Under the pieces are notes generated by a model. It made no database searches. It was not told where the DNA came from and saw only the letters and a list, made by a program, of their open reading frames with translations. Below, one piece after another: positions 22,149 to 30,678 of a stretch of DNA of 64,000 bases. Numbering within the stretch: position 1 is the first letter of the stretch; each line of letters begins with the position of its first letter. The position numbers and the translations under genes are program-made. Location of the stretch: assembly GCA_947501005.1 (NCBI GenBank), contig CANMTU010000001.1, positions 1,760,501 through 1,824,500 on the forward strand, written 5' to 3'. The DNA is from an uncultured Erythrobacter sp. (GTDB lineage Bacteria; Pseudomonadota; Alphaproteobacteria; Sphingomonadales; Sphingomonadaceae).

Positions 22149-22289
22149 CGCCCGCCCGCTAGGTCAAAACGCCGCCGCGCGCCACAGGCTTGCCCGAAAG
22201 CGCCGCTGCCATTATCTGCACCCGCAATCGCATGGCGGCCCGCCCGCCATCCCGCTTTTCCAGAACACGATCCCCGAAGGAACCCGCCG

Positions 22290-23963
<1,674 letters not shown>

Positions 23964-26733: not shown

Positions 26734-27471
26734 TTATGCCTCGGCCGAGTGCCGCAGCCTGGCCTTGGGATTAGCCTCGTCGTATTCGGGAAATTTCGGG
26801 GCGAGTTTGCGCAATTCATAGAGGTCGTAGATCGAGAAGCCCACTTTCGAGAAGATCGGCAGGATCACGAACAGGGCGACTTCGGTAAGGTCGTCGAGCA
26901 GCCCGATACCCGACGGGCCGAGCGCCCAGATGAGCGGATAGCCCAGCCACATCAGCGTGAAATAGGTGGTCACCCGCGTATAGGCGCCGCCGATCTCGGC
27001 ATTGTGGGCATAGGCCTCGCGCCGCACCCGCGTCCACAAGGTCCCGAGCATCAGGACCAGGCAGACGCAGCCGGTGGCATACCAGAACCATTGCGGTCCC
27101 TGCTCTACCGAAAGATCGGCGAACAGGCCCGAAAGGATCATGATCACGTCGAGCGCGACGAGGGTGAAGATGGTCGTCTTGTCGAGCGGGCGGAAGAACA
27201 TGCCGGTCGAACACAGCACGAAGAGCAGCAGCGGCGTGGTGACGATCCAGTCGAGATAGCGCGCGAAGTGGACCTCCTGCCCGCCCATCTCGAGCGTGCC
27301 CTGCCCCAGTGCCATCGCGGTGTAGGCCAGGCCCGACCACACCGGGATGACGATGGCGGCGGCGTATTCGTATTGCGGCACGTGCCGGGGATCGCGGCTC
27401 CACACGAAGAACAGGATCGCGCCCGCCGCCATGCATGCCACGTAGAGCCACAGCCAGCTGGTGTCCGTCAT
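26734..27471 (-). CDS. microbial rhodopsin, xenorhodopsin / Anabaena-sensory-rhodopsin type
   Basis: A 245-residue seven-helix retinal protein. Helix C reads RYLDWIVTTPLLLFV: R71, D74 (proton-acceptor position of bacteriorhodopsin D85), T78 and V85 (donor position D96, here hydrophobic). Helix F has MWLGYPLIWALG. Helix G has VILPIFSKVGFSIYDL with the retinal lysine K209 and proline P205 where proton pumps have Asp212. Pro at that site is the mark of Anabaena sensory rhodopsin and of xenorhodopsins, some of which pump protons inward. Start is ATG 27471, with GGAGAAAG upstream; TTG 27519 would add 16 residues. No retinal-forming blh or carotenoid gene lies in the window. Pump versus sensor cannot be decided from sequence. 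Confidence 0.93.
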   Translation of the reverse strand: MTDTSWLWLYVACMAAGAILFFVWSRDPRHVPQYEYAAAIVIPVWSGLAYTAMALGQGTLEMGGQEVHFARYLDWIVTTPLLLFVLCSTGMFFRPLDKTTIFTLVALDVIMILSGLFADLSVEQGPQWFWYATGCVCLVLMLGTLWTRVRREAYAHNAEIGGAYTRVTTYFTLMWLGYPLIWALGPSGIGLLDDLTEVALFVILPIFSKVGFSIYDLYELRKLAPKFPEYDEANPKARLRHSAEA

Positions 27472-27751
27472 TCCGTCTTTCTCCGATCCGCGTTCCTGGT
27501 CTCCCCAACGCCAGAGCAAGTGATTGGTTCATTTTGCAATTTCCGCGAGCCCAGCTGGCGCCCTCTGCGCGATCGAAGTCCACTACGGCGAAAGCAGACG
27601 ATCAGCAAACTTGCAGTTAATGTTTGAGTAGTCGAACCTGAACGAACGGATATATGGCCGGTTCAGAAAAGCGTCAGCGGGTTATGATACAAGACACCAT
27701 CGACACAGCCGGAGGTGGTGGGACGGCTTGGTCCAGGAAAGGAATGCGACG

Positions 27752-29550: not shown

Positions 29551-30678
29551 CTACCGTGCGCGGGCCCTGTCATCCGATGCGGTCGGCATGGGAAGGCGGA
29601 TTTCGGCGCGGAAGCCGTCCTTGCCGAAGGATTGCTCCATCGATCCGCCCTGCCCGCCGAGGATGCCGCGGATCAGGCGCGACCCGCTGCCCGACGAAAC
29701 GTCGGCCGCTTCCTCGGCTCCGGTCTGCGAACCGCCCCGCTCGATCCAGTCGATCCGCAATTGGCCCCCTTCGTGCGCCCATTCGATCAGCACCATGCCC
29801 TCGCGCTGGCCGAGCGAGCCGTATTTGACCGCGTTGGTCGCCAGTTCGTGCAGCGTCAGGCCGACCGGGGTCACGAGTTGCTTGGGCAGTTCGATATCCG
29901 GTCCCGATAGTTCGACCGCGTCGTATTTCTCACTGCGATAGGGTTCCATCACCGTCCGCACGAGGTCGATCATCCGCGTGGTCGCGCCGACCCGGCCACC
30001 CGGCGCGATCGAGGCCGTGTGCGCCCGGCTGAGCGCCTGGATGCGCTTCTGCAGTTTCTCGGCAAAGACCGCCGCATCCGTTTCGCCGCGCACGGTGATG
30101 TTGATCATGGCCGAGAGCATGGCGAACAGATTGTTCGTGCGATGCTGCAATTCCTCGGCGACGACTTCCTGGCGTACATGCTCCTCCCGCGCGGCGAGGA
30201 TGTCGGTCACGTCCCATTGCGAGCCGTAGAAATAGGCGAGCTTGCCCTGTTCGTCGAAGATCGGCCCGACATGCAGCGCGTTCCAGAACCGCGTCCCGTC
30301 CTTCTTGTAGTTGAGGATATCGACCACGACGACATCCTCGTTCGCCAGCGCGTCGCGGATCTTGGCCACCGCGCTCGCCGCCGTATCGGGCCCCTGCAGG
30401 AAGCGGCAGTTCCGCCCGATCGCCTCGTCGCGGGTATAGCCCGTCAGGCGGACGAAGGCTTCGTTCGCATAGATGATCGGGCAATCGTCCCGGAACGGGT
30501 CGGAAACGACCAGCGCCATGCGCGTCTGCTCGGTCGCCTGCATGAACAGCTTGCCCGGATCGATCGTGAGATTGCCCGGATCGGGGTTTGAACTGTTGTC
30601 GATCGTGCGCTGGTCGATGGTCGCATCGACCTGGCCATTGCGTTCGAACATGGGGGAATCGTCTTCGTCCATACCCAT
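29551..30678 (-). CDS. LOV domain-HWE/HisKA_2 histidine kinase (blue-light receptor)
   Basis: A 375-residue cytosolic photoreceptor kinase. The LOV core (about residues 45-160) has GRNCRFLQGPDT, with C91 as the residue that forms the flavin adduct under blue light, plus NYKKDGTRFWNALHVGPIFDE and the glutamine in YGSQWDVTD. The kinase half has the phospho-histidine H179 in ELQHRTNNLFAMLSAMI, LHELATNAVKYGSLG (N box) and GSGSRLIRG. The arrangement matches the LOV-histidine kinases of Erythrobacter litoralis (EL346/EL368). AGAAGGGGGG precedes ATG 30678. No response regulator lies beside it. Confidence 0.95.
   Translation of the reverse strand: MGMDEDDSPMFERNGQVDATIDQRTIDNSSNPDPGNLTIDPGKLFMQATEQTRMALVVSDPFRDDCPIIYANEAFVRLTGYTRDEAIGRNCRFLQGPDTAASAVAKIRDALANEDVVVVDILNYKKDGTRFWNALHVGPIFDEQGKLAYFYGSQWDVTDILAAREEHVRQEVVAEELQHRTNNLFAMLSAMINITVRGETDAAVFAEKLQKRIQALSRAHTASIAPGGRVGATTRMIDLVRTVMEPYRSEKYDAVELSGPDIELPKQLVTPVGLTLHELATNAVKYGSLGQREGMVLIEWAHEGGQLRIDWIERGGSQTGAEEAADVSSGSGSRLIRGILGGQGGSMEQSFGKDGFRAEIRLPMPTASDDRARAR

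Follow-up and report, generated by a model that had tools for sequence, protein, structure and literature searches.

A DTV-motif xenorhodopsin encoded by an uncultured Erythrobacter, probably an inward proton pump

The DNA analysed here, a 64-kb stretch of 64,000 nucleotides from an uncultured Erythrobacter sp. (referred to as the window), carries on its minus strand an uninterrupted frame of 245 amino acids, complement(26734-27471), with an ATG at 27471 and a stop codon at 26736-26734. The original prediction had proposed a rhodopsin gene at 26734-27471 and gave no strand; the ORF proved to be real and belongs to the minus strand, while no rhodopsin was found in the frame translated from the plus strand of this region. 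The protein matches the Pfam family PF01036 (Bac_rhodopsin) with an E-value of 4.2e-52 and 177.3 bits (cut-off 24.6); a search of NCBIfam with all three rhodopsins of the genome gave no match at E 0.001. A GGAG motif located 9 nt before the ATG is the probable ribosome-binding site (Table 1), and scans for promoters and terminators found nothing. Because relatives in other genera are 83, 81, and 73% identical and the dN/dS values against these are 0.11-0.20, the ORF is far beyond what chance would produce; these values indicate that the gene is under purifying selection.

On one side, the gene is flanked by genes for an FKBP-type isomerase and an acylphosphatase, both on the plus strand. Further out from the FKBP gene is a gene at 22284-23963 which, from a reading of its sequence, we take to be an ABCF gene. 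On the other side are genes for an RcnB-like protein, a 2OG-Fe(II) oxygenase, a PAS/HWE histidine kinase of the LOV type, a class I lysyl-tRNA synthetase, and an MscS-like channel. The kinase, encoded 2 kb from the rhodopsin, is probably a blue-light receptor to judge from its model matches (Table 1).

Table 1. Coordinates of the xenorhodopsin gene, its key codons, and the nearby kinase gene, given as positions in the window.
Feature	Position	Strand	Basis
Xenorhodopsin gene, 245 aa	26734..27471	(-)	ORF, Pfam, structure-sequence search, tree, fold match
GGAG, 9 nt before the ATG, probable ribosome-binding site	27481..27484	(-)	sequence; function inferred
E35 codon, equivalent of pump-critical PoXeR E35	27367..27369	(-)	alignment and PMC5118547
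D74 codon, Schiff-base counterion	27250..27252	(-)	alignment and PMC5118547
T78 codon, BR T89 site	27238..27240	(-)	alignment
V85 codon, BR D96 donor site	27217..27219	(-)	alignment; Val in 3/83 xenorhodopsin rows
D108 codon, pump-critical in PoXeR, Gln in ASR	27148..27150	(-)	alignment and PMC5118547
P205 codon, BR D212 site, xenorhodopsin signature	26857..26859	(-)	alignment and PMC5118547
K209 codon, retinal lysine	26845..26847	(-)	alignment
D216 codon, cytoplasmic proton acceptor in PoXeR	26824..26826	(-)	alignment and PMC5118547
PAS/LOV-type HWE histidine kinase gene	29551..30678	(-)	NF010077 above cut-off; blue-light kinase model NF052306 below its cut-off

Relatives were collected by a profile scan of genome contigs with a seven-row alignment as query (85 relatives, 80 kept), and residues were assigned in an alignment of 83 xenorhodopsin rows, namely the window protein, these 80 loci, and two PDB sequences. 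K209, D74, T78, V85, and P205, as claimed in the original prediction, were all confirmed at their positions in the minus-strand translation and in the alignment. D74 had been called the acceptor, which is bacteriorhodopsin (BR) wording: the residue is there, but in PoXeR, the inward pump of Parvularcula oceani, the Schiff-base counterion is D74, and the proton is accepted by D216 (PMC5118547). Inward pumping by PoXeR is significantly reduced in the mutants E35D/Q, D74E, D108E/N, and D216N (PMC5118547), and all four of these carboxylates are present in the window protein with identical numbering. Pro in place of BR D212 is described as a xenorhodopsin feature (PMC5118547); that it marks xenorhodopsins and Anabaena sensory rhodopsin (ASR), as had been assumed, agrees with the alignment, where P205, like E35 and D74, recurs in all of the 83 rows that have a letter at the site.

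The other positions vary. The D216 site is occupied by Asp in all rows but two, which carry Glu (L089, L090). At the D108 site, Asp is found in 30 of the 83 rows and Gln in 53, all of the latter being cyanobacterial; one cyanobacterial row (L082) is an exception with Asp. D108 is also found in the four DTG-type rows of the alignment and, while needed in PoXeR, is thus no mark of transport direction. V85, the last residue of the DTV motif, is restricted to three rows (the window protein and its orthologues from Parapontixanthobacter aurantiacus, L034, and Actirhodobacter atriluteus, L035); PoXeR has Leu, and the remaining rows have Ala, Ser, or Thr. Among the characterised proteins compared, V85 has no counterpart (L in PoXeR, A in BcXeR, S in ASR). 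For xenorhodopsins, one description gives Trp or Phe as the residue at the BR R82 site (PMC9601134), which, taken strictly, would not cover the window protein. This site is R71 in the window protein and Arg in 83/83 rows, PoXeR, BcXeR, and ASR included, so that Trp/Phe does not define the PoXeR/ASR group.

The closest relatives from the scan are alphaproteobacterial: four proteins from Erythrobacteraceae with 83, 81, 57, and 57% identity to the window protein, one from Sphingomonas lenta (73%), and PoXeR itself (57%). More distant relatives come from Hymenobacter, Bacillaceae, one Anaerolineae bin, and many cyanobacteria. When solved structures were searched with phmmer, ASR came first among the best 60 of 132 matches (2.6e-64), followed by the xenorhodopsins 7zng (3e-61) and 7zmy (4e-61), with the next family at 1e-28.

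A tree was computed from 50 rows: the window protein, 39 of the 80 loci, two PDB-derived sequences, and eight other rhodopsins. Seven partial frames were left out and 34 cyanobacterial loci were removed by thinning; the tree is without NsXeR (which is outside the 80 kept loci), RmXeR, and schizorhodopsins. The xenorhodopsin side comprises 42 of the 50 rows with a branch support of 94/93, the outgroup branches being long (program warning). Within it, the window protein groups with L034 and L035 (100/98) and then with S. lenta (4-row clade, 100/99), and this clade is joined by L036 and L038 (6-row clade, 99/92). PoXeR is the next sister to this alphaproteobacterial clade, giving seven rows with weak support (90/41). 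The cyanobacterial ASR clade (13 rows, 100/99) does not include the window protein.

An AlphaFold2 model, built on a 40-row alignment, has a mean pLDDT of 93.6 and consists of seven long helices and a weak tail. The first ten Foldseek matches in the PDB are chains of BcXeR, under the title light-driven inward proton pump (TMt 0.96-0.98). ASR (1xio, TMt 0.97) and an ASR mutant follow, and the first 13 matches are all BcXeR or ASR chains. Other rhodopsins rank below ASR, bacteriorhodopsin mostly with TMt 0.87. Because ASR fits the model as well as BcXeR (TMt 0.97 each), the fold confirms the class and does not separate pump from sensor.

That the protein is a xenorhodopsin is supported by sequence, tree, and fold. 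The features of the xenorhodopsin/ASR class are all present, namely the grouping with these proteins, Pro at the BR D212 site, K209, and D74, and the earlier assignment as xenorhodopsin type rather than classic proteorhodopsin is borne out. No description of the window protein was found among the listed papers on xenorhodopsins (Sphingomonas, Erythrobacteraceae, inward pumps, motifs, and physiology), judged mostly by titles and the opening of abstracts. The window protein adds an example, with the rare DTV motif, to an established protein family, and DTV is a donor-site variant that is new to the characterised set compared.

We consider it probable that the window protein is a light-driven inward proton pump of the PoXeR/BcXeR type. 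An inward pump or a sensor had originally been predicted; this holds and can be narrowed towards the pump, which is favoured because the four PoXeR carboxylates are kept, the protein is outside the 13-row ASR clade, and an ASRT gene is absent. By analogy to PoXeR, light would isomerise the all-trans retinal bound to K209. With P205 in the place of the second counterion (BR D212), D74 would hold the Schiff base only weakly, and the Schiff-base proton would leave towards the cytoplasm, to the E35/D216 site. Reprotonation from the extracellular side would then result in net H+ import. In the cell, such a pump might serve the light-dependent tuning of internal pH and ion balance, alongside the NTQ rhodopsin described below, rather than energy gain.

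The protein might instead be a photochromic light sensor like ASR, which transports no ions and signals via a soluble partner, but we regard this as rather unlikely. Wild-type ASR does not transport ions (PMC5118547), and E35 and D216 are found in it as well, so that few substitutions part pump from sensor; D74 and P205 are likewise common to ASR and the window protein. ASR is also the best phmmer match (among the best 60 of 132), and its fit to the model is close to that of BcXeR. When the seven alphaproteobacterial rows were constrained to group with the 13 ASR-clade rows, the resulting sister relation was not rejected (p-AU 0.066); p-AU was 0.025 when PoXeR was left out of the alphaproteobacterial rows. 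The value for the window row alone with ASR (7.8e-64) says little, since this constraint also tears the protein from its own 83% orthologue. Against a sensor stand the position outside the ASR clade (100/99), D108 where ASR has Q, and the C-terminal tail, which has 29 residues after D216; a long Arg-rich tail is described for ASR and reported as missing in PoXeR (PMC5118547).

Candidate signalling partners were also considered. The ASRT transducer family (PF07100) was not found in the genome of the window (one of 14 control genomes was positive). Since it was detected in only 4 of the 42 xenorhodopsin genomes searched, not finding it counts only a little against a sensor; in P. aurantiacus, the source of the closest orthologue, an ASRT-family protein is encoded. 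The LOV-type histidine kinase gene 2 kb away would suit a sensor, as would a PAS-GGDEF-EAL gene in Actirhodobacter, which shares its strand with the orthologue and ends about 230 bp upstream of it, but neither tracks the presence of the rhodopsin. The kinase was dropped as a partner because its gene also stands at this locus in 5 of the 8 same-genus loci sampled, all of them without the rhodopsin. The GGDEF-EAL gene was dropped as a conserved partner: neither the window nor L034 has a match to it, and the eight same-genus loci gave a single one, of 31%.

It is highly improbable that the inward-pump reading has to give way to an ordinary outward proton pump of the proteorhodopsin kind with unusual residues. 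The window protein shares with such pumps the Pfam family, D74, and T78, and D108 with the DTG-type rows, but its BR D212 site is occupied by P, its donor site lacks a carboxylate, and its first 13 fold matches are BcXeR or ASR chains. A position inside the outward-pump clade, proposed at the outset as the outcome that would speak against a xenorhodopsin, was rejected on the tree (with ASR and PoXeR, without NsXeR) both when the window row was constrained with all eight outward and Cl- pump rows (p-AU 0.0079) and when its 4-row clade was constrained with the four DTG-type rows (p-AU 0.033). In view of these values and the long outgroup branches, the rejection is consistent in both constraint forms, if not overwhelming. 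Equally remote is a passive or leaky photochromic protein or a light-gated proton channel: V85 chemistry is without precedent among the characterised proteins compared, and a pH change in E. coli alone could not part pump from channel for ASR D217E (PMC5118547), but the PoXeR current was inward at all voltages measured (PMC5118547) and all critical carboxylates of PoXeR are present in the window protein.

The assembly to which the window belongs (3.12 Mb, 6 contigs) encodes three rhodopsins. The second (C1:1111350-1111994) has a DTG motif, Asp at the D212 site, and an HH pair, and in its sequence resembles mirror proteorhodopsins, which are acid-pH outward pumps (PMC10154332). The third (C1:2055990-2056679) has the NTQ motif of the chloride-pump type, a motif read as inward Cl- transport (PMC5118547). 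The NTQ gene is followed directly, on its own strand, by a Brp/Blh-like dioxygenase gene (C1:2055092-2055754; 54 bits, matched in none of 14 control genomes). A lycopene cyclase gene (crtY) is at C1:552135-553250 (3e-81; the same Pfam model matches in 10 of 14 control genomes). With both blh and crtY, for which a genome search had been suggested, present, this bacterium can probably make retinal.

Additional rhodopsins were seen in related genomes. P. aurantiacus has a DTG-type rhodopsin gene that is broken by a stop codon (L151). S. lenta encodes a TTG-motif rhodopsin (L152:4572-5627), in which Thr takes the primary counterion site while Asp remains at the D212 site. Three cyanobacterial genomes with a xenorhodopsin also encode a second rhodopsin that has a TSD motif (L245, L246, L247).

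The xenorhodopsin is rare among close relatives. In a family sample of 397 genomes, 18 were matched, five of them by a true xenorhodopsin (57-100% identity) and the other 13 at 22-37%. Only one of 60 genomes in the genus sample has the gene; six others were matched at 24-33%, and the four of these with a retrieved locus are all DTG (L214-L217). Eight sampled same-genus loci show the ABCF/FKBP/RcnB neighbourhood without a xenorhodopsin, and a search for a rhodopsin remnant in the matching slot of one same-genus genome (G450) turned up nothing significant (best E 0.77). This distribution fits an old gene that was repeatedly lost and moved locally, and it also fits a gene that entered a variable site several times. 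For comparison, there are close relatives that lack the gene.

In the seven alphaproteobacterial genomes with a xenorhodopsin (window, L034-L038, L111), the gene is accompanied by an NTQ rhodopsin in six cases and by an NDQ rhodopsin in S. lenta. The P. oceani record contains four rhodopsins (L037, L144, L146, and L155, with one DTL, one NDQ, and two NTQ motifs), whereas PMC5118547 counts three. Within the family sample, 24 genomes have a close NTQ homologue, the best locus reading as NTQ in every one, and all five xenorhodopsin genomes belong to these 24. In a post hoc Fisher test, this co-occurrence has a p-value of 5.3e-7 over the 397 genomes; the value is 0.009 among the 58 genomes matched by either protein search (a lower bound of the rhodopsin-bearing genomes) and 0.025 when counted as four genera. 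Genome G026, with a broken NTQ-type match, was excluded from the count. A shared need for blh may explain the association. The xenorhodopsin is the sole rhodopsin in 12/12 Bacillaceae, in 5 of 15 cyanobacterial genomes, and in the Anaerolineae bin, which argues against a general pairing rule; in Hymenobacter, the partner rhodopsins are mixed (DTE, DTK, DTQ, and NDQ). In Rubricoccus and Rubrivirga, xenorhodopsins have been reported together with TSA rhodopsins related to halorhodopsin (PMC5877348).

A single cluster of S. lenta (L145:6679-10953) carries, in this order, the genes for the NDQ rhodopsin (NaR), blh, the xenorhodopsin, and an NhaA-type Na+/H+ antiporter, which suggests a possible light-driven role in pH or ion balance. 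NhaA is found beside the xenorhodopsin in one of 80 loci, some of which are short; it was therefore rejected as a general neighbour, and S. lenta is kept as a single case. Na+/H+ antiporter genes have already been noted beside nanohaloarchaeal xenorhodopsins, for which a reviewer argued an ion-pump role (PMC3198991).

A speculative and, in our judgement, rather doubtful extension is that the alphaproteobacterial xenorhodopsin forms half of a charge-balanced light-driven ion machine. It would import H+; at the same time, an NTQ partner would import Cl-, for a net uptake of HCl, or an NDQ partner would export Na+, for a net exchange of Na+ against H+. In this way, light could lower the internal pH without collapse of the voltage, as a response to alkaline pH or salt. 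Together with a DTG rhodopsin that might pump H+ outward, the DTV protein of the window and its NTQ partner would then be a three-pump version able to push pH either way. A testable setting is offered by the seven genomes in which the xenorhodopsin has an NTQ or NDQ partner; in one of these (S. lenta), the two genes share a cluster with blh and a Na+/H+ antiporter gene. We consider this partner-pump pattern the part worth following.

Compared with known systems, NsXeR from Nanosalina is also an inward pump and needs the cytoplasmic Asp D220 for pumping (PMC8518763); the place of NsXeR H48 is Ala in BcXeR (PMC13093656). The Trp/Phe at the BR R82 site in the xenorhodopsins of PMC9601134, a feature of the nanohaloarchaeal (NsXeR-like) subtype, is absent from the window protein, which has R71. 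ASR (PDB 1xio, 2m3g) is the top sequence match among solved structures (best 60 of 132), has a TMt of 0.97 for 1xio, and has equivalents of E35, D74, P205, K209, and D216. It differs by Q at the D108 site and by its separate clade in the unconstrained tree, and no transducer gene was found in the genome of the window.

BcXeR, the inward proton pump of Bacillus coahuilensis (PDB 7zmy), is the first fold match (TMt 0.97) with 45% identity and the same carboxylate set, but has a DSA motif in the aligned row instead of DTV. The xenorhodopsin is the sole rhodopsin in the 12 Bacillaceae genomes searched, to which the genome of BcXeR itself does not belong. The orthologues from P. aurantiacus and A. 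atriluteus are 83 and 81% identical, have the same DTV motif, and share the ABCF-FKBP-RcnB gene neighbourhood. They differ in that their gene is between ABCF and FKBP, whereas that of the window is between acylphosphatase and RcnB. P. aurantiacus further differs by an ASRT-family gene (L150, PF07100, G397:C5:3219-3569) on a contig other than that of the xenorhodopsin; none was found in the genome of the window.

PoXeR (L037; PMC5118547) is 57% identical to the window protein and has E35, D74, T78, D108, Pro at the D212 site, K209, and D216 in the same places. Both are devoid of a carboxylate at the donor site of outward pumps. The host of PoXeR is likewise an alphaproteobacterium and carries NTQ and NDQ rhodopsins. 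The two proteins differ in their motifs, DTL in PoXeR and DTV in the window protein, and their hosts differ as well: P. oceani is reported to have no outward H+ pump (PMC5118547), whereas the genome of the window has the DTG rhodopsin of the outward-pump type.
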